Assembly: GCA_020847095.1 (NCBI GenBank)
Contig: JADLCR010000088.1
Span: forward strand, 1 to 46,870
Source of the DNA: Oligoflexia bacterium
GTDB lineage: Bacteria; Bdellovibrionota; Bdellovibrionia; JABDDW01
Direction of reading: 5' to 3'
Length of the DNA stretch: 46,870 nt
The position numbers were made by a program, and so were the translations under genes. Below are positions 2,436 to 32,306 of the stretch, piece after piece (position 1 is the stretch's first letter; every line of letters starts with the position of its first letter). The notes below the pieces were generated by a model. It saw nothing but the letters and a program-made list of their open reading frames with translations. It had not been told where the DNA came from and did no database searches.

Positions 2436-3752
2436 TCAGCTTTTTATGGGCGAAGAAATCGACTCAAGGGCCTTAATGACGCGCCATACAAATCCCCGCT
2501 CATCGGTATGCAAAATAAAGTCAGTTGTACTCCGAGCCCAACTTTCCACTCTCGGATCCTTCATCAATCTAAGGAGCTCATGGATTTGACCAATAAAATC
2601 AACTCTCTCAAAGCAGGGCACGAACCATTTACCCATCAAAATCGGATGCAAGTGATTATTAAGCCGTGCGTTATTCCACGAGTAATCGCCATGATTGGGA
2701 TGATCGTAAGCTAGTCCCAATGCAGGAAGTCCCATAAAAGCTCCTTCGAGGACCATGGTCGAAAGTGGGCTGATGAGCCCGTCTGAAGCTTTAAGCAGGG
2801 CGGGATAATCACCCAATCCATTCATCGTCTTTTCGAGAACCTTAATGAATTTGTAGTGAGAAAGAAGGGCCGGTTCGTGTGCACGCTGATGCCGCTTCGG
2901 ATGAGGCTTATAAATAATCAATAGATCTTGAGGAAGCTTCCCTTTTTCGCAAGCCAATTCCAGTTCATTGAGTAACGAAACCTCATCAAAAACAACCCCC
3001 GCGCCCGCAAAAAGTAAAACACGCTTTTCCGGATCAATTCCTAAAGTTTGGCGAGCCTCATCTTTTGAAACTTTGGAATTAACGTAGGTTTCGAACCTTG
3101 GATTCCCGATTGTGAATATTTTTTGCGCGGGCACCCGTTGCATGAGTCGAGCAAACAAATATCCTTGCTCCCCCCAAACCCCCAGCCAATCGGGCTGTTG
3201 AAGAAACACCTTATGGGCAATGTTATCCCAATTAATGGTTACAGTAAGAGACGGAATTCGATGACGTTTACAAAAGCTGACAACGTCATCCCAAAAATAA
3301 TCGTTCATTCCCGAAGGTAAGAGAGCCACATCCAGGCGTTCGTTAAGGTCAATAAAATTGGGCGTTGTCCATCGCAAAAACTTTTCTAACAACCGACTTA
3401 CTGGGCCCGAAAGTCCAAGGTAATAAAACAAATGCACAATGAATTTAATTTTTCCCGATCGCCCACGTTGAAAAACTCGAAGTTTGTCTGGTTGCGTTCG
3501 AATAATAGGCTCATAACCCCAAAGATGTCTTAGGCCAAAAGCAATCATCCAAATTCTGAGTCGCCAATAAGTCATTTGATGAATGGCAATAATTCGCCCA
3601 AAAGAGCTTAAGTCACATTTCTGTTCGGGAGTTGTAATAAACAACAATTCGTAAGATTTTTTGAGTTCGGACAAGATGCCGGTATCGATATAGTCGCGGG
3701 CAGCATAGTCATGTGCAAAGCCAACAAGGAGCTTTTTCTTCGAGGAGCTCAT
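2436..3752 (-). CDS. Putative GT-B glycosyl/glycerophosphotransferase for surface polysaccharide
   Basis: This is a 438-residue protein of the capsule-transferase type. The first half has few landmarks. The second half is a Rossmann-like domain starting near '[14 protein letters not shown]' (about residue 245), followed by '[14 protein letters not shown]' and '[26 protein letters not shown]'. The pattern 'KPHP... S/T-x-M-x-L-E-G... G-x-P' is typical of CDP-glycerol glycerophosphotransferase-like and polysialic-type transferases. The start overlaps the NeuC-like stop by one base (TAATG), so the two are translationally coupled. It probably attaches the sugar made by the neighbouring neuC/neuB/neuA-like genes to an acceptor. 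That assignment is inference. Confidence 0.6.
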
Positions 3753-4909
3753 TAATAGGTCAAACGTTTCTGAAGATTCTTCAATGACATTTCTGCCAAA
3801 TACCCAGCGATGCGAACCCCGGCTTGACCGTCTCCAAAGAGGTTACTCTTTTTGTAGCGTCCGTGTTCGATTTGAGATTTTGCCTTTTGAAAAATATCTT
3901 CGCTATTATAGGTCGCATCGATCACGTTTTCGCCTCGCTCTCTGTTGGTTTGACGGGTGCCGACGTTAACAACAGGGACTCCTAGAAATGATCCTTCTCT
4001 GATTCCACTTGAAGAATTTCCTATCAGGCACTCACTGTTGTTGATGAGCTTAGCGTAATCTTCGACCGAAAAATTTCTGAAAAAATGAATGTACTCGGGA
4101 CGCTCTTTTTCTCTGAATACCCTCAGCCCTTTTGAAATATCATCTGACCCCGCGTCGACGTTAGGCCACAGCCAAACGGTCGGTCGTCGAAGTTTTTTTA
4201 CAGCTTTTAGGGTTTCATTAATTTGATCAAATCCCTGACCATATTCGGTTGTCACCGGGTGCTGCAGAACTACAATATAAGGATTCTTTGGATCTAGTTC
4301 AGGACCTACTCCTCCATAACGTTTAAATAGGTCTGGAGTGTTGGATAAATCCATATCACTAATGGCGTCAATGGCGGGGCAGCCAGTCAATTTGATTCGC
4401 TCAGGCTCTTCTCCCATCTTCACCAACCTCTCCGCTGACAATTTCGTCGCCGGAAAGTGAATATGTGAAAGCTTCGTGATCGCATGGCGAACGCTTTCGT
4501 CAATCGATCCTGTCACCTCACCGCCTTGAGTATGCGCCAATGGTATATTCATATATGAGGCTGCAATGGCCGTGGCCATTGTTTCAAAGCGATCAGCAAC
4601 GGTCAAAACCACATGAGGCCTAAGATTTTCAAATTGTGTCGCAAGCTCCAGAATCCCCATTCCGGTAGATTTTGCCATGGTGGTCGGGTTTTCGCCCTCA
4701 ACAATAGAATAAACTGTTGCCGACGGTTCAAACCCATCCTTTCGAATAACGTCAATAACGTTTCCAAAGCGATGCAGGAGGGCTGACGCCCCAACAATTA
4801 ATTGAAGTTCCAATTGCGGGTGCTTTTTGATCGCATTAAGGACCGACTTAATTCGGCCGTAGTTAGCTCGACTGGCGACAACGACGCAGATGCGACGCTT
4901 TTCGCTCAT
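3752..4909 (-). CDS. neuC: UDP-N-acetylglucosamine 2-epimerase, hydrolysing (NeuC/LegG type)
   Basis: The enzyme converts a UDP-HexNAc into the free 2-epimer (ManNAc or a di-N-acetyl analogue), the substrate for the next gene's PEP condensation. It is 385 residues. The N-terminus 'VVVASRANYGRIKSVLNAI' is the NeuC variant of the GT-B-like epimerase fold. Further motifs are 'TVADRFETMATAIAASYMNIPLAHTQGGEVTGSIDESVRHAITKLSH' (residues about 108-155, shown in pieces: TVADRFE, HTQGGE, DESVRHA) and 'NSSSGIREG' plus 'VVNVGTRQ..RERGENVID' near the C-terminus. I chose the ATG at 4909 because it makes an ATGA overlap with the upstream NeuB-like stop. An in-frame ATG five codons upstream (4924) is the alternative. 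Whether the product is ManNAc or the legionaminic precursor is open. Confidence 0.88.
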   Translation of the reverse strand: MSEKRRICVVVASRANYGRIKSVLNAIKKHPQLELQLIVGASALLHRFGNVIDVIRKDGFEPSATVYSIVEGENPTTMAKSTGMGILELATQFENLRPHVVLTVADRFETMATAIAASYMNIPLAHTQGGEVTGSIDESVRHAITKLSHIHFPATKLSAERLVKMGEEPERIKLTGCPAIDAISDMDLSNTPDLFKRYGGVGPELDPKNPYIVVLQHPVTTEYGQGFDQINETLKAVKKLRRPTVWLWPNVDAGSDDISKGLRVFREKERPEYIHFFRNFSVEDYAKLINNSECLIGNSSSGIREGSFLGVPVVNVGTRQTNRERGENVIDATYNSEDIFQKAKSQIEHGRYKKSNLFGDGQAGVRIAGYLAEMSLKNLQKRLTY

Positions 4910-5718
4910 CGATTGTTCCCCCATTTACCCACGTAAATTTGCCTCATGCGCTCCTCTTCCGAAGAAAGTAAAGGGTTCGCGACTCCATCCATCAACGCGC
5001 ACTTCTGCGCAAAATCGACAAGATCTTTGAAATCCTCGGGCTGCATAGACACTGATTGGTCTTTTCCGGGCAGATTTCGAGAAAACGTATAATGCTTTTC
5101 TAAAATTTCGGCACCCCGAGCGATCGCCATTTTACCCGCTTCTGTACCATGACTATGATCGCTAAACCCGACTCGCACACCGAGAGATCTCAGCCAATCC
5201 ATTCGCTTCATATTCACTTGATCAAGCGGCGTTGGATAAAGCGAAACACAATGCAAGAAAACCACATCGTGACCTCGAGTCACATCGATTGCTTTTTTAA
5301 CCTCCGTTTCGGGAGTCATGCCTGTCGAAACGATGATTCTTTTGAATCGTTTCATAAGGCCTTCTAGCAGTTTAACGCTTCCGCAATCGGGACTCGCCAC
5401 TTTAATCATTTCCAGCCCCAGTTCCGCCAAAAAATCCATTCGATTGAGATCAAAGCAGGTAGTCAAAAATCCCACACCAGCCTTTTTGCAATGTTCTATT
5501 AGGGCGTGGTGATCTTGATCAGAGAGCTGAGATTTCTTGTGGCGAGCTAAAGTGGCATCATATTCAGGAAAATCTTTTCGCAAGCTGTCTGCTGTCCACG
5601 ACTGGAATTTGACCCAATTCACACCAACTTGGGCGGCCACATCGATCATGGCCCTAGCAATATTCATATCGCCCATATGATTCGAAGATACATCTGCAAT
5701 GATCTGTGTATGTGTCAT
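4906..5718 (-). CDS. neuB: NeuB-family sialic/legionaminic acid synthase without SAF domain
   Basis: This TIM-barrel synthase condenses PEP with a ManNAc-like aldose to give a nine-carbon 2-keto-3-deoxy acid. Visible motifs are 'IIADVSSNHMGD' at the N-terminus, 'VNWVKFQSW', 'GLEMIKVASPD', 'IIVSTGM' and the metal-ligand histidines in 'GFSDHSHG' and 'ILEKHYTF'. At 270 residues it stops right after the barrel, whereas family members usually run to about 340 with a C-terminal SAF (antifreeze-like) domain, so that domain is absent. Two ATGs occur in tandem (5721 and 5718). The AAGGGG sequence sits 5 bases before the second, so I chose 5718. It is coupled by ATGA to neuC. Confidence 0.85.
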   Translation of the reverse strand: MTHTQIIADVSSNHMGDMNIARAMIDVAAQVGVNWVKFQSWTADSLRKDFPEYDATLARHKKSQLSDQDHHALIEHCKKAGVGFLTTCFDLNRMDFLAELGLEMIKVASPDCGSVKLLEGLMKRFKRIIVSTGMTPETEVKKAIDVTRGHDVVFLHCVSLYPTPLDQVNMKRMDWLRSLGVRVGFSDHSHGTEAGKMAIARGAEILEKHYTFSRNLPGKDQSVSMQPEDFKDLVDFAQKCALMDGVANPLLSSEEERMRQIYVGKWGNNR

Positions 5719-5721
5719 CAT

Positions 5722-5824
5722 AACCCCTTGGTTTTCATGACAAAACCACTTGGTTTTGGCTCTGTCAAGGCCGTTGACTCACCAAATTATTATGGTAGCT
5801 TTTAGACTTCAAGAGGTAAAAGAA
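5722..5824. promoter_or_regulatory. Divergent intergenic region with 18-bp palindrome and third half-site
   Basis: The 103-bp gap between the leftward NeuB-like and rightward cytidylyltransferase genes contains the palindrome CAAAACCA-CT-TGGTTTTG at 5741-5758, with perfect 8-bp arms. A third TGGTTTT half-site lies at 5729-5735 and can pair with AAAACCA at 5742-5748, so two alternative stems exist beside the leftward Shine-Dalgarno. On the minus strand a perfect TTGACA lies at 5763-5768, and 17 bp downstream a weak -10 (TTTTGT) falls inside the palindrome. On the plus strand TATTAT at 5788-5793 is a possible -10 without a good -35. An operator controlling both directions is the simplest reading, but this is inferred. 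Confidence 0.5.
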
Positions 5825-6559
5825 ATGGTAAGTGGCCACTCTGAATCACACCCTCGTACTGTGGCGTTGATACCAGCGCGATCAGGGAGCAAAGGCGTTC
5901 CAAACAAAAATATGCAAATAATAGACGGAGAAACCCTCATCGCAAGGGCAATACGAACGGCTTTATCGACTCCCGTCTTCTCTCTTGTCGTTGTCAGTTC
6001 TGACGACGAAGTCATCCTTCAGGAGGCCCGAAATCACGGTGCAAAAACAATTTTGCGGCCGAAAGACTTGGCTACTGATAGCTCCCCGATCGCTGAAACT
6101 GTCGCTCATACGTTATCTGAACTCAGAAATGCCGGAATCGCTCCAGATTATCTCATACTGCTTGAGCCATCTTGCCCACTTCGCACCACTCAAATGATCG
6201 AAGAAGTATCGTACTGCCTTCAGAATCATGATCATGTTTTTACAGTGTCGCTCGTAGATCTCAAATTCCATCCAGCAAAACAATTCACATTGAACGATGC
6301 CAGAATTGCCCAAAGGGCTGCGCCTGGACTCCCAAAGGTTGCTAATCGACAAGAGCTTTCGCCCACTTATATTAGAAACGGTGCAGCATATGGAATAAAG
6401 GTTAGCTCATTTGAATCTCAAATGGATTTATTGGGCTCTAATCCATATGCCATTGTCATCGATTCTCCCCTAGTCAACATCGATACCATCAGCGACCTTG
6501 AAATGGCCCGAGGCCTTGCCAGACAACAGAAAATTGATGAGACCTTCTCCGGACCTTGA
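5825..6559 (+). CDS. neuA: Acylneuraminate/nonulosonate cytidylyltransferase (NeuA type)
   Basis: The enzyme activates a nonulosonic acid with CTP to the CMP-sugar used by transferases. It has 244 residues starting at the ATG at 5825, preceded at 7 bases by AGAGGT; the frame extends 25 codons further up without a ribosome site. The N-terminal nucleotide loop 'LIPARSGSKGVPNKNM' (about residues 15-30) is the family signature, with 'VSSDDEVILQEARNHGA' and 'LLEPSCPLR' following, and 'NGAAYGIKVSS' and 'VNIDTISDLEMA' near the end. It is transcribed away from neuB/neuC and is followed by the acetyltransferase. The exact sugar (Neu5Ac, legionaminic or other) is not determined. Confidence 0.85.
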   Translation: MVSGHSESHPRTVALIPARSGSKGVPNKNMQIIDGETLIARAIRTALSTPVFSLVVVSSDDEVILQEARNHGAKTILRPKDLATDSSPIAETVAHTLSELRNAGIAPDYLILLEPSCPLRTTQMIEEVSYCLQNHDHVFTVSLVDLKFHPAKQFTLNDARIAQRAAPGLPKVANRQELSPTYIRNGAAYGIKVSSFESQMDLLGSNPYAIVIDSPLVNIDTISDLEMARGLARQQKIDETFSGP

Positions 6560-6591: not shown

Positions 6592-7137
6592 ATGATTTCT
6601 GAAAAACAAACATCGATTAAATGCTCGATTCAAACTCGAAGACTTTTCATTCGAAATCTCAACGCCGATGATGTTTCGCCTCGTTATCTCTCTTGGCTCA
6701 AAGAGCAATCGATTCAGCAGTTCATTTGCTCAAGAACTCAGAGTATTAAAGATCTCATAATGTATGTAACCGAAAAAGAACGCGACCCGGCCGTCTTATT
6801 TCTTGGAGTCTTCGACAAATCCGCCGGACTGCACTTGGGGAATATTAAATTTGAACCAATTGATTTCAGCGCCAAATGCACTAATTTTGGAATTTTACTT
6901 GCCCCAGAAGCCGGCGGCCAGGGCATTGCGCAAGAAGCATGTCACGCTAGTTTTAAATTCGTTTTTGAGACTCTGGGATTAGAGCAAGTGAACTTATCAC
7001 TGTTTGCCGATAACAAACCGGCCCTAAGGCTTTACGAGAAGTTGAACTTTAAAATCGCAGGAAATCGGGAGTATCAAGATCGGCCAGTCATCGATATGAC
7101 TCTAAATCGAACAAATTTCTATTTTCAAAATGCCTAA
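6592..7137 (+). CDS. GNAT-family N-acetyltransferase (RimJ/RimL-like, possible sugar-amine acetyltransferase)
   Basis: This is a 181-residue acetyl-CoA-dependent acetyltransferase. It begins 'QTRRLFIRNLNADDVS' and has 'LHLGNIKFEPIDFS' for the central strands, 'GILLAPEAGGQGIAQEA' as the acetyl-CoA loop, and 'VNLSLFADNKPALRLYEKLNFKIAG', the classical C-terminal motif. Immediate linkage to a nonulosonate cytidylyltransferase suggests N-acylation of an amino-sugar intermediate, as PseH or LegH do, but this is context-based. The ATG at 6592 gives a normal N-terminus. A TTG at 6556 overlapping the previous stop is an alternative that would add 12 residues. Its last 50 bp overlap tail-to-tail with the next leftward gene. 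Confidence 0.75.
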   Translation: MISEKQTSIKCSIQTRRLFIRNLNADDVSPRYLSWLKEQSIQQFICSRTQSIKDLIMYVTEKERDPAVLFLGVFDKSAGLHLGNIKFEPIDFSAKCTNFGILLAPEAGGQGIAQEACHASFKFVFETLGLEQVNLSLFADNKPALRLYEKLNFKIAGNREYQDRPVIDMTLNRTNFYFQNA

Positions 7138-8941
7138 AAGCAAACCATCGCTCCCCCAATTTTCGCAATTCGTCCTTTTCTAAACTCGAAAGATCTTTAA
7201 GTTTCGCAGTCAATTGACCTTGATCAGAATACTGAAACCTACTTCCGGCAATCGCCTCTAACGGATCATTTGCAAACGATTCTGGCACTTTTAAAACTAG
7301 CGGCAGTACACCCAATAAAAGTGCTTCAATAGCCAAACTTGAGCCCGTCAAGACAGCTAGATCACTGGCTGACAGTAGGTCGTAAGTACTCATTCCAGTA
7401 TCGGCGAGTAAAACAGAGGATTTTTCGTTTGTGACTCTGAGCATTTCCCTTTTTAACTTTTCCCCGAATGTAACTGAAGGATGTGTTTTGATAATTATCC
7501 TTGGAGCCTTGTCAAGGGAAGCTATCAACTTGTCTAAACTTAATACTAGATTCAATGACTCTTCAAAAATGAGTGATGTTCCTACAAAAATCACAAACTC
7601 ATTTTTTCCAATCATGAGCTTTTTGCAGATCTGCTCTTTATTAATTCCATTTGAAATATACTTTTGCAAAGGTTCATAGCGAGCGGGGCCGACTTCTACG
7701 ATTTTGCTCATTTGCCCGTAAGCCCTTCTCAATCTATCCGCAGCATAAGGTCCTACCGTCCAGACAACATCAGGAATTAATTTTTGGTTACCAGCTAATT
7801 CATCTTTTGAGAAGAAGTAAGACAGGAAGTTCTCGCTAAATGCGGCATGTTGATAACCGATGGTTTCAGACTTGCTACCGAGGCACTTCATGATTTGAAA
7901 TTCAAACGGCTGAAATTCCAATCGAAATAGAAACCTTTTCGGCTTTAAAACGTCAGTAGCACGCAACAAAGCACATTCAAGGTATTTAGCTTTAAAGAAT
8001 TCACTATTTCCAAATGATTCAATGAGTTCCAGAGCGATAAGTTGTCGCACATCAATTTGTTGAAATTGAAACTCATTTACTAGCCTCAACCTCGATACCG
8101 CTCCAATTAGGCTGAATAAAATCCCTAACGGATTATTTACCAAGACATCGGAAACTCTTGAAAACGAATTCAACACTACCGAACATTGAGCAAAATCTTC
8201 AAAACGTCCTCTATTTTTGTAAATTTCAATGGGTGCGTTAAGCCACAGCCAAAATCGCCAAGAGTTGGGCGCCGAATTCTGCGCTGGTAAACTCCCAAAA
8301 AACTTTTCACGACGAGAGCTTTCAAATGGTCGATCCCAGAAATCCGGGAAAAAGCTAAACCAAGCAGTTTCGCCTTTTTTAAGATTTAAGTACTCCCTTG
8401 GAGAAAGAAACCATTTGATCAGCACTCCCGCTGACGAAATAATCCACTGTCGAGTACAGACCAATCCAAACTTTATCCAATGCCCCAATGTAATAGAAAG
8501 AGTTGACCCATTATTAGAACACAATGTTTTCGATACAAACTGTTTCAATTCTCGATCATTCACTTCAAACAGAATCTCTTTAATATTTTCTTCTTTCTGG
8601 ATCGCTTGTCGCAATCTCGCAATTGAATAGAGGCGAGAGGGAAGTTTTACTTTCCAGCTGTTTTTTTCTGAAGCACTTAGATACCTCCAATCTGGCGTTA
8701 TCTTTGATTCGATTTTAAAACTCAGATCCAACATCCAATTTCTAACCAATTTACTCGTCTCGGCGTCAAACGGTAATTCAATGAATTGCAGGATCAATGA
8801 AGATTCAACCGTTTTAAGTAGGCTCTTAAGGCTCTGAGACGAAACACCAATTGGAAATATCTTGTATGATACGCTTGGATCGAGAGATTGGATCCAACTC
8901 AGATCAAGGTGGTCAATAACAATAATGGTTACTGGCGTCAT
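7088..8941 (-). CDS. Large putative surface-polysaccharide transferase (617 aa, GT-B-like C-terminus)
   Basis: This protein of unknown function has a recognisable C-terminal half. After about residue 420 it reads 'FVIFVGTSLIFEESLNLVLSL', 'RIIIKTHPSV', 'LLADTGMSTYDLLSASDLAVLTGSSLAIEALLLGVLPLVLKV' (given in pieces), the 'KTHP ... SS-x-A-x-E-A-L' pattern of CDP-glycerol/polysialyl-type transferases. The N-terminal 400 residues are unlike anything I recognise and are rich in Leu, Phe and Ser. By eye the gene is more A+T-rich than its neighbours, which would fit transfer. The ATG at 8941 overlaps the epimerase stop by ATGA, so it is the last gene of the leftward chain starting at the GAPDH-like gene. 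Confidence 0.6.
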   Translation of the reverse strand: MTPVTIIVIDHLDLSWIQSLDPSVSYKIFPIGVSSQSLKSLLKTVESSLILQFIELPFDAETSKLVRNWMLDLSFKIESKITPDWRYLSASEKNSWKVKLPSRLYSIARLRQAIQKEENIKEILFEVNDRELKQFVSKTLCSNNGSTLSITLGHWIKFGLVCTRQWIISSAGVLIKWFLSPREYLNLKKGETAWFSFFPDFWDRPFESSRREKFFGSLPAQNSAPNSWRFWLWLNAPIEIYKNRGRFEDFAQCSVVLNSFSRVSDVLVNNPLGILFSLIGAVSRLRLVNEFQFQQIDVRQLIALELIESFGNSEFFKAKYLECALLRATDVLKPKRFLFRLEFQPFEFQIMKCLGSKSETIGYQHAAFSENFLSYFFSKDELAGNQKLIPDVVWTVGPYAADRLRRAYGQMSKIVEVGPARYEPLQKYISNGINKEQICKKLMIGKNEFVIFVGTSLIFEESLNLVLSLDKLIASLDKAPRIIIKTHPSVTFGEKLKREMLRVTNEKSSVLLADTGMSTYDLLSASDLAVLTGSSLAIEALLLGVLPLVLKVPESFANDPLEAIAGSRFQYSDQGQLTAKLKDLSSLEKDELRKLGERWFAFRHFENRNLFDLESYR

Positions 8942-9879
8942 CTCTTCTGACGATAAGATTCGACGGTCATGTGAATTCCGTCGAAAGGTTTCACTTTGGG
9001 GGAGTAGTCGAGATCACGGGCGGCGGCCGAAAACGAGCCATGAGAAACTGGCGGGTCCCCGGGGGTTCCGGGTTGCACTTCGACTGGGTATTTTTTTGGA
9101 TCGAAGCCCATTTCTTTGATTAGTTCGTCTAAAATTTCGCGAATTGTATACGAAGTTCCAGAACAAAGATTGTAGGTTTTGCCAATTGATCGAGGGGTTG
9201 CTAGGGCACTGAGGATCGCACTGACGACATCACTGACATGAACAATGTCACGCTTTCGCTCTAAAGCCCCTTTTACAACAATGGGCTTTTCTTGAACCAG
9301 GTAGGCCAAATATATACTTAAAAGGCCTTGATCCAGATTTTCTAAATTTTGTCCGCCTCCATAAGTGGTATAGAGCCTGAAAGTCGTTGTTTCGAACCCA
9401 TATTCTCGTGTGAACATGCGTAAGTAATGTTCCGATGCCGCTTTATGAGCACCATATGGTGAATCGGGATTGAGCGGTTCAGACTCGAGTGTTGGAAAGT
9501 TTCTCGGCTGACCGTATGCCGACATAGAACTCGTAAACAGAAAGCGTTTGCAGTCCTGATTTTTTGCAAACTCTAAAAGTTTCATTGTTGAAACTTGGTT
9601 AGCATTTAAATCTAAGTAAGGCTTAAGAAAAGAAATCGCATTGGAGGCCTGGGCGGCTAAATGCAAAATGGCATCGAAGCGATACTGACTCAATTCAAGG
9701 TAAATTTCATTTTGTGAGAGATCGCCACGGATAAATTTAGCACCATCGGGAATATTGCTTTGCTTTCCGTTGGACAAATCATCAGCAATAACAACATTAG
9801 AACCGCTCTTAACGAGCTCCCTGCTCAAATGGGATCCAACAAATCCAGCGCCACCGGTTACCAAATAAGTTTTTTTCAT
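8938..9879 (-). CDS. NAD-dependent sugar epimerase/dehydratase (extended SDR)
   Basis: This is a 313-residue extended short-chain dehydrogenase acting on a nucleotide sugar. The NAD loop 'VTGGAGFVGSHL' is at residues 7-18 and 'DDLSNGKQSN' carries the acidic residue that selects NAD. The catalytic elements are 'LFTSSMSAYGQ' (Ser/Thr) and 'SPYGAHKAASEHY' (Tyr-x3-Lys). 'TTFRLYTTYGGGQN' and 'KRDIVHVSDVV' are standard epimerase features. UDP-glucose 4-epimerase or a related 4-epimerase or dehydratase is likely, but specificity cannot be set. It overlaps both neighbours by ATGA. Confidence 0.88.
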   Translation of the reverse strand: MKKTYLVTGGAGFVGSHLSRELVKSGSNVVIADDLSNGKQSNIPDGAKFIRGDLSQNEIYLELSQYRFDAILHLAAQASNAISFLKPYLDLNANQVSTMKLLEFAKNQDCKRFLFTSSMSAYGQPRNFPTLESEPLNPDSPYGAHKAASEHYLRMFTREYGFETTTFRLYTTYGGGQNLENLDQGLLSIYLAYLVQEKPIVVKGALERKRDIVHVSDVVSAILSALATPRSIGKTYNLCSGTSYTIREILDELIKEMGFDPKKYPVEVQPGTPGDPPVSHGSFSAAARDLDYSPKVKPFDGIHMTVESYRQKR

Positions 9880-10871
9880 ACGTTCACCTGATTGAGTGGC
9901 CTTTCACCTTTTAAAACGCGAAGTGCTTCTTGCGCTGCCTTTGTGCGCATTTCCACCACGGCCTCTTCAGAATAAAACGCACAATGGGGTGTCACCAAGA
10001 GTCGATCGCAACCCTCTTTTTCTCCTGAAAGCCACTTTTTAAAGAACGGATCATTGGGATCTAGCGGCTCTTGTGGCAAGACATCAAAACCTGCTCGCGC
10101 AACGATGCCTGCGTCGAAAGCTTGAGTAAAGCACTTCCAATCCAAAACCGGTCCGCGAGCGGTATTAATCACTGTCATGCCTCGTTTGGCATTCTCCCAA
10201 AATGACGAGTTAATCATACCTTTCGTTTCGGGTGTTAAAGGAACATGGAGACTCACGATATCGCAAGCTCGGGCCAATTCTTCTAGGGAGTCAAACCGGT
10301 TGAGTCCCAAGCTTTTATCCCAACCTTGTGCCTTATACGGGTCATAAAATCCAACCCGAAGGCCAAAAGCTTTTGCTCTTAAGGCCACCGCAGTTCCAAT
10401 TCGCCCCAAACCAACTATACCCATCACTTTGTTAGTTAAACGAAACGTGGGAACCAATCCCCACTTCCAACCAACCGGACTTGTTTTTGAAATTTCATTA
10501 TGGCCATTTAGCCCGCGCGCAAGGGCCAGCAAAAGAGCCATGGCATGATCGGCTACGTCATGAGTTCCGTAATCAGGGACGTTACTGACTGTGATTCCCA
10601 TTTCTTTGGCTGCGGCCAAGTCGACGTTATCAAACCCAGCTCCCACGCGCACGATGGACTTACAGTTTTTAAGACTGCGTAATGTCTCTTTATCCCAAAT
10701 CAAGTCATGCCAGGCCAAAATGGCATGAGCGTCTTCAATCTTACCCTTGAACTCCGCATTGGTTTTGACGTTGAGACATCGTACTTCTCTCGCAGCACTT
10801 CCAAAAATGTCTTTTTCAATTTTACCTTGGTCAGACACTCGATCTGGAATCACAACGACCCATTGACTCAT
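9876..10871 (-). CDS. D-2-hydroxyacid dehydrogenase (SerA/PdxB/CtBP-like)
   Basis: This is a 331-residue NAD-dependent oxidoreductase interconverting a D-2-hydroxy acid and a 2-keto acid. Substrate-domain residues 'IVRVGAGFDNVDLAAAKEMGI' and 'VPDYGTHDVADHAMALLLAL' resemble the CtBP branch. The NAD loop is 'GIVGLGRIGTAVALRA'. The catalytic triad is visible as Arg in 'NTARGPVLD', Glu in 'DVLPQEPLDP' and His in 'VTPHCAFYSEEA'. It lacks the ACT domain of long SerA proteins. ATGA overlaps on both sides place it inside the sugar-acid cluster, so a phosphorylated or free aldonic acid is a likelier substrate than serine precursors. That is inference. Confidence 0.88.
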   Translation of the reverse strand: MSQWVVVIPDRVSDQGKIEKDIFGSAAREVRCLNVKTNAEFKGKIEDAHAILAWHDLIWDKETLRSLKNCKSIVRVGAGFDNVDLAAAKEMGITVSNVPDYGTHDVADHAMALLLALARGLNGHNEISKTSPVGWKWGLVPTFRLTNKVMGIVGLGRIGTAVALRAKAFGLRVGFYDPYKAQGWDKSLGLNRFDSLEELARACDIVSLHVPLTPETKGMINSSFWENAKRGMTVINTARGPVLDWKCFTQAFDAGIVARAGFDVLPQEPLDPNDPFFKKWLSGEKEGCDRLLVTPHCAFYSEEAVVEMRTKAAQEALRVLKGERPLNQVNV

Positions 10872-11689
10872 AGTAAATTCTCCGTGACATAAGAATTTCT
10901 TAAATCCCCAAGCCCCTCAATAGACAAAACCACCTCATCACCAGCCTTCACTTGCGATTGCTTAGCACCCTTCGGCGTTCCAGTGAGAATGACGTCACCG
11001 GGCTCGAGGGTCATGAGACTTGATATAAACAGCACTGAGTCCGCAGAGTCCAAGACTCTGTTACTCGTATTAGATTTTTGCGTGACCTTTGAATTAATCG
11101 TAGTCTGTAAATCAACCTCTTCAAATCCAAGCCCCGCAACCAGATCCGACCCAAATGGGCAGTACCCGTCTAAGCTTTTACTTCGCGCCAGATGCCAGTC
11201 TCTTGAAAAGACGTTGGTGGACGATACGTCGTTGGCAAGGACGCAGCCAAAAATAGCATTTTGCGCTTCTAGTCGCGACTTGGCATTCTTGATTTTCTTG
11301 CCAATGACAACTGCCAGCTCCACCTCAACCCATAAATCTTTCACCAATCGAGAAATCGTAATTGTATCCTGGGGGCCCGCAATGCAATTGGCTGCTTTTA
11401 AGAAAACAACCGGCTCAAAACCTAACTCCCCATAGGTTGGTTCTTCAGGCTTCACTCGACTTTGAGAATCTTCAAAAAGATCTTTATAATTATAACCCAT
11501 GGCCAAGATTTTGGTGGGCTCAACCGGCGCTAACAATTTAAGGTCGCGCATTGCCACTAACGGACCGACGGCCTGACTTCCCTCTTTCCAGGGTGCATGG
11601 TTGAGGGGCTTTACAAACCCGCCTTGACGCTCACCCCATTGAGGCTGTCCTTTTTCATTGATGAATTTCACAAAACGCTTTTGCGCCAT
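10868..11689 (-). CDS. Fumarylacetoacetate hydrolase (FAH) family protein
   Basis: The 273-residue protein has the FAH fold that handles acylpyruvates and 2-keto-3-deoxy acids (hydrolysis, decarboxylation or isomerisation) with a divalent metal. A short N-terminal part leads to 'KILAMGYNYKDLFEDS' and then 'PVVFLKAANCIAGPQDTI'. The metal residues are in 'VEVELAVVIGKKIKNA' and 'GCVLANDVSST'. 'SLDGYCPFGSDLVAG', 'SSLMTLEPGDVILTGTP' and 'VKAGDEVVLSIEGLGDLRN' complete the family pattern. It lies 3 bp after the upstream cytidylyltransferase stop. FAH enzymes are uncommon in glycan loci, and the fold's preference for 2-keto-3-deoxy acids matches the likely product of the NeuB enzymes here. Confidence 0.87.
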   Translation of the reverse strand: MAQKRFVKFINEKGQPQWGERQGGFVKPLNHAPWKEGSQAVGPLVAMRDLKLLAPVEPTKILAMGYNYKDLFEDSQSRVKPEEPTYGELGFEPVVFLKAANCIAGPQDTITISRLVKDLWVEVELAVVIGKKIKNAKSRLEAQNAIFGCVLANDVSSTNVFSRDWHLARSKSLDGYCPFGSDLVAGLGFEEVDLQTTINSKVTQKSNTSNRVLDSADSVLFISSLMTLEPGDVILTGTPKGAKQSQVKAGDEVVLSIEGLGDLRNSYVTENLL

Positions 11690-11692
11690 TCG

Positions 11693-12427
11693 TCACTTTC
11701 CGTAGGGCGTTTGAGTTTCTGAAAATCCGTGTGATTTTAACCAATGCTCAACCATAGCAAACTGCCATTCAAAATCGATGTCGCATCCGCCTTCTTGATA
11801 GAGTGGGTGCACCTTACGGCCAATCCAACGAAAGGGGACCTCGCCCTTTGAGTAATCAAAGCACCGCGTTCTTAAAACAAATACAGAGCAGTCTACAAAG
11901 TAGGTATCACCCTGACTATCACGGTCGCAGGTCGCATTATCAAATAGTTTCGGATCTACAAATGGCTTCACTAATCCGTCTTCAATTTTGCGAGCTCGTA
12001 AAGCGCTAAACATATTGTATTTGCTCACCGTCACCGCAGAATCAAGGTCGGGATGCTTTCTTAAAAACTCAATCCCCTCATCGATAATTCCTGGTGTGAT
12101 GGTGGCTCCATTTGCAAAAAGCAAAACCACGAACTCAGGGTCGGCATTCTTAATCGACTTAATGGCTTCAAATCCATGTTTGAAGGCATCTTCAGCTAAG
12201 GCTTCGTTAGTCGCCAGGTAAGCGGGCCGCTCGATGTATTGACATTTGTTTTTCAACGCTAGATCACGAATTTTAGGACAATCTGTTGAAACAAAAATAT
12301 CCGTCGCAAGTCTGGAGTTTTGCGCCGCCATTATGGGATACATCACCAACGGGCGCCCCAAAAGCGGAGTTACATTTTTATCTTTAACGCGACTGCCTTT
12401 GCGACCAATGATCAAAACAGGAATCAT
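11693..12427 (-). CDS. Cytidylyltransferase of the acylneuraminate/CMP-sugar-acid family
   Basis: This 244-residue nucleotidyltransferase has the family loop in a modified form, 'LIIGRKGSRVKDKNVTPLLGRPLV' (residues about 4-27), followed by 'DIFVSTDCPKIRDLALKN' and 'VVLLFANGATITPGIIDEGI', then 'ALRARKIEDGLVKPF' and 'TYFVDCSVFVLR'. It would activate an acid sugar with CTP. It is the second of three such enzymes within 11 kb and differs clearly from the one at 5825. ATGA overlap with the HAD gene upstream suggests the HAD product is its substrate. Confidence 0.8.
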   Translation of the reverse strand: MIPVLIIGRKGSRVKDKNVTPLLGRPLVMYPIMAAQNSRLATDIFVSTDCPKIRDLALKNKCQYIERPAYLATNEALAEDAFKHGFEAIKSIKNADPEFVVLLFANGATITPGIIDEGIEFLRKHPDLDSAVTVSKYNMFSALRARKIEDGLVKPFVDPKLFDNATCDRDSQGDTYFVDCSVFVLRTRCFDYSKGEVPFRWIGRKVHPLYQEGGCDIDFEWQFAMVEHWLKSHGFSETQTPYGK

Positions 12428-13188
12428 GCGCCTTTCCTCTCAATAAAACTTCCTAATTCGTCGATTTTAAGTTGGGGTATATTCAACGCCAGCGCCTCTC
12501 GCCGATCCTCTTCGCCCAAATACCCCCAAGTCGACAGGGCCACATCAAACCCCAATTCTTGAGCGGGCGCAAGGTGATGCACATAATCATCGATAAATAG
12601 AATTTCGTTGGGTTCAAGGCCTGTCCGCTTTGCGGTTTCTTGCAAACGCATCGCTTTTGTCTGTCCATGGGGAGGCTTTGGAATGATCAAGCCGGGGTCC
12701 AATTTTATACCTACCACGGCATCAAAAATTCGATGAATGGAGCTTTCGTCCCGAGATGAAAGAATCCAAGCTCGGTCTTGATTCACCAGTTTTAGAAATA
12801 ACTGAAGTGGCTTTTCAAAGGCGCGGACGTTCTGAGTCCAATGACTTGAATTCAAAGATAGGCGCTCACGGGTTTTGTAATAGTCATCACTGAAATCGAT
12901 AAACTCAGATTGATACTTTTCCGCGACCTTCAAAAACTCATGGGATGTTTCTGGAAGCTGAGCCTTAGCCAGAAGTTTTAATAAGACCGCGTACTGCCAA
13001 GGCGGGCCTACAAAATAACGCTTTTCTAAAAACCGCGGAGCCAGGTCTTCATCTGAGAGCGTGTCGATATTGATCAGAGATTTCCATTTAGGCAGCCGCG
13101 CTGTATTGACAGCCACAGCAAAACACTCCCGTGCCGATTCAAATAAAACGCCATCGAAATCAAAAATGAACTTTTTAGTGGTTGCCAC
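12424..13188 (-). CDS. HAD-superfamily phosphatase
   Basis: This is a 254-residue haloacid-dehalogenase-type hydrolase. Motif I is 'FIFDFDGVLFES' at residues 7-18 (Asp10 and Asp12), motif II is the serine of 'AWILSSRDES', and motif IV is 'ILFIDDYVHHLAPAQELGFD' near the C-terminus. A helical cap lies between. I chose the GTG at 13188, which overlaps the upstream GAPDH-like stop by 14 bases and places motif I at the usual distance from the N-terminus. Longer in-frame starts lie deep within the upstream gene. In context it may dephosphorylate a sugar-acid phosphate before CMP activation, as NeuB-type pathways for KDN and Kdo do. This is inference. Confidence 0.8.
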   Translation of the reverse strand: MATTKKFIFDFDGVLFESARECFAVAVNTARLPKWKSLINIDTLSDEDLAPRFLEKRYFVGPPWQYAVLLKLLAKAQLPETSHEFLKVAEKYQSEFIDFSDDYYKTRERLSLNSSHWTQNVRAFEKPLQLFLKLVNQDRAWILSSRDESSIHRIFDAVVGIKLDPGLIIPKPPHGQTKAMRLQETAKRTGLEPNEILFIDDYVHHLAPAQELGFDVALSTWGYLGEEDRREALALNIPQLKIDELGSFIERKGA

Positions 13189-14212
13189 GAGAAATGAGAT
13201 CCAAGGTATCAACAACCCGAGCCGAGTAGCCCCACTCGTTGTCATACCAGAGCACAAGCTTCAATGAGCGAGCGTTATTAATCATCACCCAGCGTAAATC
13301 AATTATGGAAGAGTGTTCATCGCGAATGTAGTCGACCGAGGTCAGGGGCTCATCGCAAAGTCTCATCGTCTTGAAAGGAGACTTCTCGATTTGTTTTTTG
13401 AATGCTTGAGTCAAAGATTCCAAAGTGACATCTCGCTCTAGATCCAAAGTAAGATCGGCCGTTGAAACAATCGAAGTGGGCACTCGATAGGAAAAACACT
13501 GCAGACGACTTTTTAAATCTGGCAGCACTCGCTCGCAGGCACTCACCACCGTCGTTGGTTTTGGGATGATATTGCCAATAGACGATCGGCCCAAAGCGTA
13601 ATGGGAGTAAGTTGCGCCCGGATAAGATTGGGACCGAGACGGACCGTCCATTAAATTTTGATAACTCAGCCAAGGATGAAGTGTGGTCACAAAACCATGA
13701 TTAATGCCGAAGCTATCTTTGATGACTTTTAAGACCGGGGCACAAGCATTAGCGTCACAAATACTCGTTGATACCAACTTATGAGTTTTCGGATCAAACT
13801 GATCTTCGTTAACACCAAATACCAAGGTAAAATCCGATTGCCCCGCCATTTGGGTGACGAGCACATGCAATTTGTTTGTCAGCCCACGGGCATGAGTTTC
13901 GTTATTTTTTACTCCTGTTGATTCGATAACGACGTCACAGCCGCTTTCAATCCAAGGGACCTTGTCGATTTCTGGATGGTGAGTGACCCGAATGTTGTGA
14001 CTCCCGACAGTTAAACCAGATTCAGTCACTTGAGAATCAAGCTCCAGGCGTCCGTATGTCGTGTCGTACTGCAATAAGTATTTGAGATTAGCCCGGTCTG
14101 GGTTGATGTCGTTGATATGAGTGATTTCGTGCTTATCAGATTGCAAAAGATGGCGTGCAACCGCCCGGCCTATCCTACCAAAACCATTGATTCCGACTTT
14201 CAGTTTGCGCAT
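13175..14212 (-). CDS. Divergent GAPDH-like dehydrogenase in the sugar-acid cluster
   Basis: The 345-residue protein has the full GAPDH fold. The NAD loop is '[13 protein letters not shown]' (residues 6-18), 'INDINPDRANLKYLLQYDTTYGR' follows (pieces: NDINPD, YDTTYGR), the nucleophile is Cys152 in 'STSICDANACAP', His179 is in 'TTLHPWLSYQ', and 'WYDNEWGYSARVVD' is at the end. Compared with the housekeeping gap at 31296, residues flanking the active site are changed: SCTTNC has become ICDANA, HSYTNDQ has become HPWLSYQ, and TTTGAAK has become KPTTVVS. These are positions that bind the two phosphates in GAPDH. A different substrate is therefore likely. ATG 14212 is preferred to an in-frame GTG at 14218. 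It is the first gene of the leftward chain. Confidence 0.85.
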   Translation of the reverse strand: MRKLKVGINGFGRIGRAVARHLLQSDKHEITHINDINPDRANLKYLLQYDTTYGRLELDSQVTESGLTVGSHNIRVTHHPEIDKVPWIESGCDVVIESTGVKNNETHARGLTNKLHVLVTQMAGQSDFTLVFGVNEDQFDPKTHKLVSTSICDANACAPVLKVIKDSFGINHGFVTTLHPWLSYQNLMDGPSRSQSYPGATYSHYALGRSSIGNIIPKPTTVVSACERVLPDLKSRLQCFSYRVPTSIVSTADLTLDLERDVTLESLTQAFKKQIEKSPFKTMRLCDEPLTSVDYIRDEHSSIIDLRWVMINNARSLKLVLWYDNEWGYSARVVDTLDLISRGNH

Positions 14213-14285
14213 TGACACGACGTGAATTATTAATAGAAGTCGAAAAAGGTGTCACGTAGAATCATCTCTCAAAAAGGTGGGTAAA

Positions 14286-15266
14286 ATGAGTTCGAAGCTT
14301 CCTTATGTTGTGGCCGAAGTTGCTCAAGGGTATGAGGGGCAAAAGCGCCTTGTTGAACTATACTGCGCCGCAGCAAATGCCACTCAAGCCGACGCTATTA
14401 AATTTCAAATCTTTGCGGCCGATGAATTAGCCCTGGAAGACTACAAGTACTACTCACTTTTTAAAGGTCTTGAACTCCCCATGGAGGTTTGGAAGTCCGC
14501 CGTTGAATCGATTCATCAGGCCGGAAAAGAATTTTATTCAGACGTTTTTGGCCTCCAGTCTCTGGAGGAGCTACACGGAATTGGCGTCGACGGTTTTAAG
14601 GTCCATTCGACCGATGTTAATAACTTGGTGCTTTTGAAACGCATTGCTTCCACAAAAAAGAAGGTTTTGCTTTCAACTGGAGGCACTGAGCCAAATGTCA
14701 TTGACCGAGCCGTTGAAGTGCTTGGTTCATGCCCGATTACCCTGATGCATGGGTTTCAAGCCGAACCTACGGACATCGCCGATAACCACTTGCTTCGGAT
14801 CAAAACGATCAAAGCCCGCTACGGTCTTCCGGTTGGGTTTCAAGATCATACCGACGGCGAACATCCCCTCGCCCACTCTTTGCCCTTTTTAGCCATGGGC
14901 TTGGGCGCCACATTGATTGAAAAACATTTCACTTTAAGCCGAGTCGCCAAGATCGAAGATTACGTGTCTGCGCTCACGGCTGAAGAGTTTAAAAATTGGT
15001 GCGCCCAAATTAAAGAGGCAGGATTCTCGCTTGGACAAGAAGAGTGGAAGCTGACCGATAAAGAGCTAAAATACAAATCTCAAGTAAGACGCGCAGTATG
15101 CACCACACGCTCTCTGCAACCAGGGCACACCATACAAATTGAAGACGTCACCCTAAAGCGATCAGGAAATGAAAACGCCATTTATGATGTCGCCGAAGTT
15201 GTTGGTCGCAAGGTTCAAAAGCCCGTTGACCACAATCGAGTTATTGAAAAGGGAGTTCTGACATGA
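14286..15266 (+). CDS. Second NeuB-family synthase, with C-terminal SAF domain
   Basis: This 326-residue synthase has a TIM barrel with 'YVVAEVAQGYEGQKRL', 'ADAIKFQIFAADEL', 'DGFKVHSTDVNNL', 'VLLSTGG' and the metal histidines in 'GFQDHTDGEHP' and 'LIEKHFTLSR'. A complete SAF domain follows from about residue 270: 'RRAVCTTRSLQPGHTIQIED' and 'VVGRKVQKPVDHNRVIEKG'. The usual N-H of the NeuB loop (INHNG) is replaced by G-Y (QGYEG), unlike the paralogue at 5718. The ATG at 14286 has AAGGTGG 5 bases upstream; a GTG at 14277 is less likely. It is coupled by ATGA to the SpsF-like gene and diverges from the GAPDH-like gene. Confidence 0.85.
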   Translation: MSSKLPYVVAEVAQGYEGQKRLVELYCAAANATQADAIKFQIFAADELALEDYKYYSLFKGLELPMEVWKSAVESIHQAGKEFYSDVFGLQSLEELHGIGVDGFKVHSTDVNNLVLLKRIASTKKKVLLSTGGTEPNVIDRAVEVLGSCPITLMHGFQAEPTDIADNHLLRIKTIKARYGLPVGFQDHTDGEHPLAHSLPFLAMGLGATLIEKHFTLSRVAKIEDYVSALTAEEFKNWCAQIKEAGFSLGQEEWKLTDKELKYKSQVRRAVCTTRSLQPGHTIQIEDVTLKRSGNENAIYDVAEVVGRKVQKPVDHNRVIEKGVLT

Positions 15267-16018
15267 GTCAGGCCTTTGACGCCATTCTTGCCTGCCGGCT
15301 AAAGGGCACTCGCCTTTATGGCAAACCCCTTCAGCTAATTGACATTGAAAAAGAGATTTCGATTCTCGAATACTGTGTTCGGTACCTCAAAGAGACTTCG
15401 AGCGTAAGACATATATGTCTTGCGATATCTGATGAGCCCGAAAACCAAGCGTTTGTGCCTTTGGCTGAAAAGCATGGCTGGCATTATGTTTTTGGCGACC
15501 CCAAAGATGTTTTGGGTCGGATCCTCAAGGCGACAACATCACTCAACACTGAACACGTTTTGCGCGTGACATCGGAATGCCCTTTTGTGGCCAACGAACA
15601 AATCGACGAATTGTTCTCCAAACACCTCAGTCACGGTGCGGATTATTCTTCATTTGAAAAGCTACCCGAAGGTACAAGCTTCGAAATTATCAAAACCACC
15701 GCTCTTCAAAAATCTCATGATCGAGGCAATGACAGAAATCGCAGTGAGTTGGTGACCAGTTATATTTTTGAAAATCAAAAAGAATTTAAAATCTTGCGCC
15801 CCGCTTTACCCGACGCTCTTTCGCGAAACGAAGTTCGGGTGACCGTTGACTACCCCGAGGATCTGATTTTTTGCCGAAAAATCTACCGCGATCTTAAAGG
15901 GCGTTCTCGGCTTATTCCGGTAACCGACATTATAAAATATTGGGACGAACAGCCTCAAACTCGCAAAATGGTCGAAGACATCGGCATCGATTGGGGCACC
16001 GGCCGTATATGGGAATAA
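15263..16018 (+). CDS. SpsF/CMP-Kdo-synthetase-like cytidylyltransferase
   Basis: This 251-residue nucleotidyltransferase has the loop 'AILACRLKGTRLYGKPLQLI' (residues 7-26), a variant of the SpsF/KdsB motif. It continues with 'HICLAISDEPENQAF', 'FGDPKDVLGRILKA', 'HVLRVTSECPFV' and 'VRVTVDYPEDLIFCRKIY', all typical of spore-coat-polysaccharide SpsF proteins. It overlaps the SAF-type NeuB by ATGA, so the pair probably makes and activates one sugar acid. It is the third cytidylyltransferase of the locus and the most divergent. It converges on the FkbM gene with an 18-bp gap. Confidence 0.85.
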   Translation: MSQAFDAILACRLKGTRLYGKPLQLIDIEKEISILEYCVRYLKETSSVRHICLAISDEPENQAFVPLAEKHGWHYVFGDPKDVLGRILKATTSLNTEHVLRVTSECPFVANEQIDELFSKHLSHGADYSSFEKLPEGTSFEIIKTTALQKSHDRGNDRNRSELVTSYIFENQKEFKILRPALPDALSRNEVRVTVDYPEDLIFCRKIYRDLKGRSRLIPVTDIIKYWDEQPQTRKMVEDIGIDWGTGRIWE

Positions 16019-16036: not shown

Positions 16037-16861
16037 TTAGTGATCCCTAGAGAATAGGTAGTTTTTTGAAGTCATTCCTGCAGCCGAATATGACCATTGA
16101 CTCTCAAGTCGTTTCTTAAAACCCAAATTAAGAATTCGGTGCATTTGGGAATCCAAATGGCCTTTGTCCCTAAAGCTAAGTTCGACCAACAAACTCCTTA
16201 CCCGACCCGAAAGCAAAATTGACTTGGCACCGTCAAGAATTTGCTCTTCTAATCCATCAACATCAAGTTTGATGAGTTGAGGACAAGGCAGCCCTAATTT
16301 ATTTACTGCATCATCCAACGTGAAAGCTATGGTTCCCTGTTGAATCATTGCTCGACCATTTTCAGCAAAATCACTCACTTTTCCAAACGAATGCATCGAT
16401 GACCCAACATCACCAGCCGAAACAAAGAATTTATTGTATCCCGAATGATCAGCTAATGCGAAATTACATGGGACTACATTTTGAATTTGATTAACGACAA
16501 TGTTTCGACAAATCCGTGCAAAGTTCTGTGCTTCAGGCTCGAATGCATACACCTGACCTTTGGAATTCCGCTTGGCGGCGTAAAGGGTATATATTCCAAT
16601 ATTGGCTCCAATATCGAATAAAACATCTCCTGGGCCAAAGTTTTCATCAATCCAATCAAGCGTCTCCGGCTCTTTATGTTCATAACTATCTATTCGATAA
16701 CGCTCAATCTCTGATGCGCAACCCAAAGAAATTTGGATCCCCCGAACTCGAACTTGGATCAGTGGATCAACCCATCTTCGCAGTGGGTATACGAAAAATG
16801 ATCTGAAAAGAAATTTCAACCGCCCTATTACCTTTTGAAAAAACGTTCGTTTGATTGCCAT
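16037..16861 (-). CDS. FkbM-family S-adenosylmethionine methyltransferase
   Basis: The protein has 274 residues from ATG 16861. The SAM-binding motif is 'DVLFDIGANIGIYTLYAA', with 'VYAFEPEAQNFARICRNI' for the ribose-binding acid and 'VPCNFALADHSG' next. 'PQLIKLDVDGLEEQILDGA' and 'LLVELSFRD' complete the FkbM fold. In glycan loci these enzymes O-methylate sugars. The frame opens at 16921, but that region holds the terminator hairpin of the upstream gene, so starts at 16861 (or 16891) are more credible. There is no clear ribosome site. The sequence looks A+T-rich relative to the heme region. Confidence 0.82.
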   Translation of the reverse strand: MAIKRTFFQKVIGRLKFLFRSFFVYPLRRWVDPLIQVRVRGIQISLGCASEIERYRIDSYEHKEPETLDWIDENFGPGDVLFDIGANIGIYTLYAAKRNSKGQVYAFEPEAQNFARICRNIVVNQIQNVVPCNFALADHSGYNKFFVSAGDVGSSMHSFGKVSDFAENGRAMIQQGTIAFTLDDAVNKLGLPCPQLIKLDVDGLEEQILDGAKSILLSGRVRSLLVELSFRDKGHLDSQMHRILNLGFKKRLESQWSYSAAGMTSKNYLFSRDH

Positions 16862-16906
16862 GTGAACTAAAGAAATATGAGACACCGCGGCCATTTGCAA
16901 GGGAAA

Positions 16907-16935
16907 CAGAAAAGGGGGCATTCACCCCCTTTCTG
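16907..16935 (-). terminator. Rho-independent terminator of the leftward 498-aa gene
   Basis: A strong hairpin has left arm CAGAAAAGGGGG (16907-16918), a 6-base loop, and right arm CCCCCTTTCTG (16925-16935), with one bulged base. It starts 29 bases after the stop codon at 16964. Read on the minus strand, the G/C stem is followed by a T-rich tail (CTTTTCTGTTTCCC). The tail is not a pure T run, so efficiency is uncertain. Confidence 0.7.
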
Positions 16936-31232: not shown

Positions 31233-31261
31233 TTGACCAAGAGATGAGCCGAAGCTAGATT
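31233..31261 (+). promoter_or_regulatory. Sigma-70-type promoter of the gap operon
   Basis: TTGACC at 31233-31238 and TAGATT at 31256-31261 are separated by 17 bp, giving 5/6 and 4/6 matches. The expected start of transcription is near 31268, leaving a leader of about 28 bases with AAGGAG 5 bases before the gap ATG at 31296. It is the best-looking promoter in the window. Confidence 0.65.
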
Positions 31262-31295
31262 GGGACATCCAAATTTCGATTTAAAAGGAGTCCGT

Positions 31296-32306
31296 ATGGG
31301 TATGCGTCCAAAAGTTGGGATCAATGGGTTCGGCCGAATTGGTCGGGTTTTGTTTCGTGCGGGCTTCGAACGTCTCGATGTCTGCGCTATCAACGACACA
31401 TCAGATGTTAATACGATTGCTCACTTGCTCAAATACGATAGCATTCATGGCCGCTTTCCAGGAAAAGTCGAAGCTAAAGATGGCAAACTCATCGTCAATG
31501 GAAAGACCATTCCCGTTTACTCAACAAAAGATCCGGGGGCGATTCCTTGGAAAGAGTTTGGAGTCGACCTTGTTCTTGAATGTACGGGAGCCATGAAGAA
31601 AAAAGAAGATGCCGCCAAACACATTCAAAACGGCGGAGCTAAGCGGGTGATGATTTCCGCTCCCGCCGATGATTCTGACCTTACAATTGTAATGGGGGTC
31701 AACCACAAGCAATATGATCCCAAAAAACACACCATCGTCAGCAACGCGAGCTGCACAACCAATTGTTTGGCGCCCATTGCCAAAGTATTAAACGAAAACT
31801 TTGGCATCGAGCACGGACTCATGACCACCGTCCACTCTTATACCAACGATCAACGCATTATGGATTCAGGCCACAAAGATCTTCGCCGGGCGCGCGCAGC
31901 GGCGTTGAGCATGATTCCAACGACAACGGGAGCGGCCAAAACCGTTGGCAAGGTTATTCCTGAACTAAAGGGCAAAATTGACGGCACAAGTGTTCGAGTA
32001 CCGACTCCCAATGTCAGCCTCGTCGACTTCGTTGCCAATATTAAAAAAGACACCACCGTCGAGCAGATAAATGAAGTTCTAAAGAAAGCAGCCTCACAGG
32101 ATCTTAAAAACATTATGGTTTGTGAAGAAGACGAACTTGTGAGCACGGATTTTAATGGCAATGCCGCTTCTAGCGTCATTGACCTTCCCAGTACCATGGT
32201 CATTGGCAACCGTATGATTAAAGTCATGGCGTGGTACGACAATGAGACCGGTTTTAGTAATCGCATGGTTGATCTTGCTCTTTATATGTCTGAGCTCGGA
32301 CTATGA
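31296..32306 (+). CDS. gap: Glyceraldehyde-3-phosphate dehydrogenase, type I
   Basis: This is the housekeeping glycolytic enzyme: glyceraldehyde-3-phosphate plus NAD and phosphate gives 1,3-bisphosphoglycerate. It is 336 residues from the ATG with AAGGAG 5 bases upstream (a second ATG two codons on is possible). '[12 protein letters not shown]' binds NAD, Cys153 lies in '[12 protein letters not shown]', His180 in '[10 protein letters not shown]', and the phosphate sites '[10 protein letters not shown]' and '[13 protein letters not shown]' are canonical. '[15 protein letters not shown]' is at the end. Its stop overlaps pgk (ATGA). Confidence 0.97.

Follow-up and report, generated by a model that had tools for sequence, protein, structure and literature searches.

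A conserved gene set with a new GAPDH subfamily, probably for the synthesis of a nucleotide-activated acid sugar, in an Oligoflexia bacterium

We analysed a stretch of 46,870 nucleotides from an Oligoflexia bacterium (hereafter the window), which lies at the end of a 126.7-kb contig in a draft genome of 2.7 Mb. Within it lies a leftward operon of seven genes, encoding a GAPDH-like dehydrogenase (GAPDH2), a HAD phosphatase, a cytidylyltransferase (CTP1), a FAH-fold enzyme (FAH), a D-2-hydroxyacid dehydrogenase (HDH), an SDR and a transferase-like protein of 617 residues. Four of these genes, GAPDH2, FAH, HDH and CTP1, belong together as a genuine biosynthetic set that is conserved across genomes. 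This module probably serves the synthesis of a nucleotide-activated acid sugar and includes a new GAPDH subfamily, a combination that is apparently undescribed. The synthase NeuB2 and its cytidylyltransferase CTP2, which face the operon, are a separate conserved unit that is independent of the module.

Recurrence of the four-gene module

When 84,980 species genomes were scanned using an alignment of CTP1, 187 loci emerged, and the best 80 of these were compared. In all eight of the closest loci (L012-L019), where CTP1 is 57-81% identical to that of the window, GAPDH2, FAH, CTP1 and the same type of HDH are found together. These loci come from five phyla: Bdellovibrionota, Myxococcota, Elusimicrobiota, Omnitrophota and KSB1. 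Neither GAPDH2, FAH nor this type of HDH was the best match in any of the 72 more distant CTP1 loci (GAPDH2, 8/8 versus 0/72; Fisher 3e-11). The four core genes are co-directional and close in seven of the eight loci, with those of L016 spread across a few kilobases more; in L015 the core genes are divided between strands. Moreover, the nine module CTP1s form a single clade in a maximum-likelihood tree (support 100/99). Because the core recurs in eight distant loci, the association of the four genes goes beyond chance. An earlier, sequence-only reading of the window had made its proposal depend on linkage elsewhere, and for these four genes such linkage exists in 8/8 loci.

Independently of CTP1, 859 genomes sampled from three phyla were searched with a DNA pattern for the HPWLSYQN motif of GAPDH2. 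The pattern occurred in 4/859 genomes (1/241, 2/334 and 1/284), all four times within already known module loci, and no GAPDH2 outside the module was found among the 859. Since the sample yielded no new carrier, it limits the exclusivity of GAPDH2 to the module and does not prove it. In plasmid and phage records CTP1 had only distant matches (≤34% identity). Among the matches listed for plasmids, GAPDH2 hit solely ordinary GAPDHs (≤40% identity), and the nine matches checked in viral contigs all carry the SCT-type motif and none SICD. Four genomes of the window's own phylum with CTP1 relatives were rejected as carriers of module orthologues, being without GAPDH2 and FAH; they belong to a wider set of CTP1 loci.

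Operon layout and active sites

Open reading frame (ORF) and profile checks verified all eight ORFs in 8938-16018 at the places, and in the families, that the sequence-only reading had named. CMP below stands for cytidine monophosphate, NeuAc for N-acetylneuraminate and Kdo for 3-deoxy-D-manno-octulosonate.

7088-8941, minus strand: 617-residue transferase-like protein; final operon gene, likely user of the CMP-activated sugar
8938-9879, minus strand: SDR; GalE-like extended SDR, possible epimerase
9876-10871, minus strand: HDH; D-2-hydroxyacid dehydrogenase with GxGxxG and an Arg/Glu/His triad
10868-11689, minus strand: FAH; FAH-fold Mg/2-oxoacid enzyme, metal ligands retained, hydrolytic His replaced by Leu71
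11693-12427, minus strand: CTP1; cytidylyltransferase of the CMP-NeuAc/Kdo synthetase superfamily (PF02348)
12424-13188, minus strand: HAD phosphatase; GTG start, motifs DFDG / SS / K / DD
13175-14218, minus strand: GAPDH2; GAPDH-superfamily dehydrogenase of a new subfamily (SICD / HPWLSYQN), predicted to oxidise an aldose phosphate to the acid
14219-14276, no strand: divergent intergenic region of 58 bases between the GAPDH2 and NeuB2 operons
14277-15266, plus strand: NeuB2; NeuB synthase with SAF domain, in a two-gene unit beside the operon that probably serves a pathway of its own
15263-16018, plus strand: CTP2; SpsF-type cytidylyltransferase, partner of NeuB2

The junctions were also borne out. 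GAPDH2 and HAD overlap by 14 bases, given a HAD start at the GTG at 13188, which we prefer to the mechanically called ORF start at 13257. HAD/CTP1, FAH/HDH and HDH/SDR overlap by 4 bases each, and CTP1 and FAH are separated by a 3-base gap. The six leftward genes of the sequence-only reading are present, but its operon was one gene short, as the gene for the 617-residue protein overlaps SDR by 4 bases (8938-8941) and extends the operon to a seventh gene. NeuB2 and CTP2 overlap by 4 bases.

Judged by its sequence, GAPDH2 is a new GAPDH subfamily with a unique active-site signature. It shares 42-61% identity with its 8 orthologues and falls below every NCBIfam GAPDH/Epd cut-off (type I GAPDH TIGR01534, 263 bits against 367; erythrose-4-phosphate dehydrogenase TIGR01532, 213.6 bits against 530.6). 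A housekeeping GAPDH was ruled out, the glycolytic enzyme being encoded at 31260-32306 and 37% identical to GAPDH2. The AlphaFold2 model has a predicted local distance difference test score of 83.9, low solely near residues 184-214, and the Foldseek matches listed for it are GAPDHs (template modelling score about 0.82-0.90), so that the fold is that of GAPDH. Ser148, Thr150, Thr179, Asp181 and Gly209 (standard numbering) constitute the phosphate sites of GAPDH. In 9/9 GAPDH2 copies the canonical SCTT, which is retained in canonical GAPDH and in viral-contig GAPDHs, is replaced by SICD; the canonical HxxTxxQ is HPWLSYQNL, directly followed by an insertion of ~10 residues; and Gly209 is replaced, in an IPKxT motif. 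The resulting phosphate-site changes are S148->I, T150->D, T179->L, D181->Y and G209->T, and they make inorganic phosphate an unlikely second substrate. Cys154, His181 and Arg245 (standard Cys149, His176 and Arg231) are retained, the first two being invariant.

The HDH family takes in PdxB, phosphoglycerate dehydrogenase and 2-ketogluconate reductases. All nine module HDHs keep GxGxxG and the catalytic Arg/Glu/His, the features of PF02826. CTP1 scores 41.4 bits against PF02348 (gathering 22.6) and, at 66.3 bits, stays under the cut-off of 205.7 for the pseudaminic acid cytidylyltransferase PseF (TIGR03584). The catalytic motifs of HAD are complete; an orthologue was found in 4/8 module loci and a different HAD in 2 further loci. 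SDR has a 69% identical counterpart in L013, and related GalE-like SDRs (about 40-44%) stand near CTP1 elsewhere. The 617-residue protein has a weak BFO_1060 glycosyltransferase domain. Two rounds of profile search placed it in a family of ~600-residue transferase-like proteins found in most CTP1 loci, and it is therefore likely an acceptor-side enzyme that uses the CMP-activated sugar.

FAH shares its fold and its Mg site for a 2-oxo acid with the FAH superfamily (acylpyruvase FAHD1, HpcE, 2-keto-3-deoxy-D-arabinonate dehydratase). Its Mg ligands E122, E124 and D154 (the ExE and D) are invariant and the conserved Lys is also retained. Its structural neighbours, the dehydratase among them, bind 2-oxo acids on Mg and include entries with bound oxalate, pyruvate or 2-oxobutyrate. 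In contrast, the His of the hydrolytic dyad, which in FAHD1 is His30-Glu33 (PMC8398924), is found in the aligned solved relatives but is Leu71 in all nine module copies.

A possible route and its alternatives

We consider it possible, with chances approaching even, that the leftward operon is self-contained and NeuB-independent, making a CMP-activated ulosonic acid (a 2-keto acid sugar) and attaching it to a surface glycan. GAPDH2 would take the aldehyde of an open-chain aldose phosphate straight to the acid and would use no inorganic phosphate. HDH would then oxidise C2 of the aldonate phosphate to give the 2-keto acid, like PdxB and 2-ketogluconate-type members, or would run in reverse. FAH may bind the 2-oxo acid on Mg and enolise it, so that the acid is isomerised, epimerised or dehydrated but not hydrolysed. 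HAD would remove the phosphate, CTP1 would transfer CMP to give the CMP-ulosonate, SDR would adjust the stereochemistry and the 617-residue protein would transfer the sugar to the glycan; the order of these steps, like the substrate and product, is predicted. The sequence-only reading had suggested a route that builds or trims an acid sugar before CMP transfer. Most of the enzymes do fit 2-keto-acid chemistry, whilst trimming by FAH is unlikely because its hydrolytic His is Leu throughout.

A wider CTP1 operon, with lactonase, HDH, SDR, HAD, SPASM radical S-adenosylmethionine (SAM) enzyme and HisC-like aminotransferase, occurs in L051, L067, L070, L086 and about 70 more loci. It spans many bacterial phyla and methanogen-related archaea and is apparently unnamed. 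The recurrent order is 6-phosphogluconolactonase or cyclase, HDH, SDR, HAD, CTP1, radical SAM, and HisC-like or short SDR. The lactonase of L051 is a true 6-phosphogluconolactonase (TIGR01198, 138 bits; cut-off 124), and the alternative enzyme at its position is a PF04199 cyclase. Composition was counted in the 49 loci that span 16 kb or more: SDR, HDH and HAD occur together in 29/49 and with a lactonase in 16/49, whilst HisC-like (21/49) and short SDR (17/49) genes are never found together (0/49). The module and the wider operon have in common a core of CTP1, HDH, a HAD phosphatase and a ~600-residue transferase-like protein. They differ in that the wider loci have SDR and lactonase instead of GAPDH2 and FAH, and mostly a radical SAM enzyme. 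The SDR of the wider loci is present in 0/8 GAPDH2-type loci versus 55/72 others (Fisher 4e-5), and lactonase and radical SAM each occur in 1/8 GAPDH2-type loci. The gene content of the wider operon would be expected to lead from aldose phosphate through lactone and aldonate phosphate to a 2-keto-aldonate, which CTP1 would join to CMP. An oxidative reading of the module is supported by these loci, since SDR and lactonase stand where GAPDH2 and FAH stand here. Tentatively, and somewhat short of an even chance, both gene sets may represent an undescribed route to CMP-2-ulosonic acids that does without an aldol-type phosphoenolpyruvate (PEP) synthase and oxidises C1 and C2 before activation. One form would use SDR and lactonase (many bacteria and methanogen-related archaea), the other, found here, a new non-phosphorylating GAPDH subfamily and a non-hydrolytic FAH.

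Several points weigh against the oxidative CMP-ulosonate route. HDH could work as a reductase instead of an oxidase, the target of CTP1 could be a phosphate group in place of an anomeric hydroxyl, and the FAH step could be any of several reactions. No HAD was found in module loci L015 and L016, and L013 was the one module locus in which a close SDR orthologue was found. That SDR/lactonase and GAPDH2/FAH replace each other is deduced from co-occurrence, and the 72 comparison loci are only the best-scoring part of the 187 candidates.

An unlikely alternative, though the strongest, is that CTP1 activates a phosphorylated small acid (phospho-aldonate or phospho-glycerate) to an acid linked to cytidine diphosphate (CDP), from which the 617-residue protein would transfer a phosphodiester, as in CDP-glycerol systems. 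The top NCBIfam model for HDH is indeed phosphoglycerate dehydrogenase, GAPDH- and phosphoglycerate dehydrogenase-type enzymes handle C3-C4 phospho-acids, and the transferase-like protein of L019 weakly matches CDP-glycerol glycerophosphotransferase, below cut-off. However, the closest solved relatives of CTP1, the CMP-NeuAc and CMP-Kdo synthetases, act on anomeric hydroxyls, the operon carries its own phosphatase, and the 6-phosphogluconolactonase of the sister operons points to longer sugars.

It is more doubtful still that all eight genes form one pathway, in which NeuB2 would condense PEP and an aldehyde that the leftward enzymes make or trim. The two operons are divergent neighbours with a 58-base gap between their start sites, and L013 keeps this arrangement, its NeuB2 and CTP2 being 70 and 72% identical. 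Yet L013 is the only one of the 8 other module loci with the pair. Apart from L013, NeuB2 had just distant matches (≤30%) in the eight module genomes. Moreover, adjacent NeuB2-CTP2 pairs stand in two genomes of the window's own phylum, G125 (40/41%) and G217 (32/30%), without the GAPDH2 signature, and every NeuB has its own cytidylyltransferase. As the pair is absent from seven module loci and stands alone in G125 and G217, the module does not need NeuB2, which is thus ruled out as a required partner. The sequence-only reading was therefore right to join GAPDH2, FAH, HDH and CTP1 (8/8 loci), whereas NeuB is a mere neighbour; its view that NeuB makes the substrate of the leftward enzymes is not supported, and among the other module loci L013 alone has the NeuB-SAF gene beside the GAPDH-like one. 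In sialic, legionaminic and pseudaminic acid pathways, too, the last enzymes are a CMP-acid-sugar synthetase and a transferase, encoded within a polysaccharide island, and a NeuB unit adjoins the module. Unlike these pathways, which use PEP condensation, the module core has no NeuB, and its acid would come from sugar oxidation.

Very improbable is a branch resembling Epd and PdxB, in which GAPDH2 and HDH would yield a 2-oxo-3-hydroxy-4-phospho acid for vitamin B6 or an amino-sugar precursor, CTP1 being unrelated. Epd and PdxB, the first steps of deoxyxylulose 5-phosphate-dependent vitamin B6 synthesis, are the sole textbook pairing of a GAPDH paralogue, which gives an aldonate phosphate, with a D-2-hydroxyacid dehydrogenase, which gives a 2-keto acid. 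However, the active-site residues differ and the scores are far under the cut-offs (Epd 213 against 530; PdxB 95 bits against 434). Moreover, GAPDH2 and HDH are always accompanied by CTP1, not SerC, and the module has no aminotransferase. Lastly, a chance cluster of unrelated enzymes, such as free gene shuffling in polysaccharide islands could produce, is refuted for the core by its presence in five phyla, its shared clade and its unique signatures, and retains a negligible probability.

In the open-licence literature we found no description of the gene combination, of CMP-hexulosonic acids, of pentulosonic acids or of GAPDH-like polysaccharide genes, although a subscription paper could exist; nor does any of the families and structures searched describe the module set. 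The sequence-only reading had placed the GAPDH-like, FAH and HDH genes outside known routes, and within these searches that holds. Brachyspira plasmid genes (PMC4267127), considered as a described example, are a different gene set. Capsules do contain ulosonic acids besides nonulosonates: going by the title of Dengler 1988, as cited in PMC10433991, the Escherichia coli K3 antigen has 4-deoxy-2-hexulosonic acid, a likeness of sugar type. If true, the oxidative CMP-ulosonate route would be a second biochemical logic by which bacteria and archaea make the acid sugars of their surfaces. It would account for the module in its five or more phyla and for the sister gene set found in many others, and would add to the textbook GAPDH fold a new role in biosynthesis that can be recognised from the active site.

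Neighbouring units and further loci

NeuC, NeuB1 and NeuA1 are encoded at 3752-6559, NeuC scoring 398 against TIGR03568 (cut-off 236). The window thus has three cytidylyltransferases beside three acid-sugar units, of which NeuB2-CTP2 would be the second and NeuC-NeuB1-NeuA1 the third. NeuB1 (4906-5721) has only 271 residues and no SAF/antifreeze-like domain, despite its bona fide NeuC and NeuA neighbours. Convergent to CTP2 lies an FkbM-type methyltransferase gene (16037-16921), with a 53% homologue at the same place in L013, which may methylate one of the products of the locus.

In L017 and L019, NeuA-like, short SDR, HisF/HisH-like and amidotransferase-like genes, named by sequence resemblance only, lie upstream of GAPDH2 and are reminiscent of an arrangement for amidated acid sugars. 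Moreover, L025, L033, L043 and L044 carry a second CTP1-like gene (about 34-36% identity), which suggests paired or successive CMP activation.

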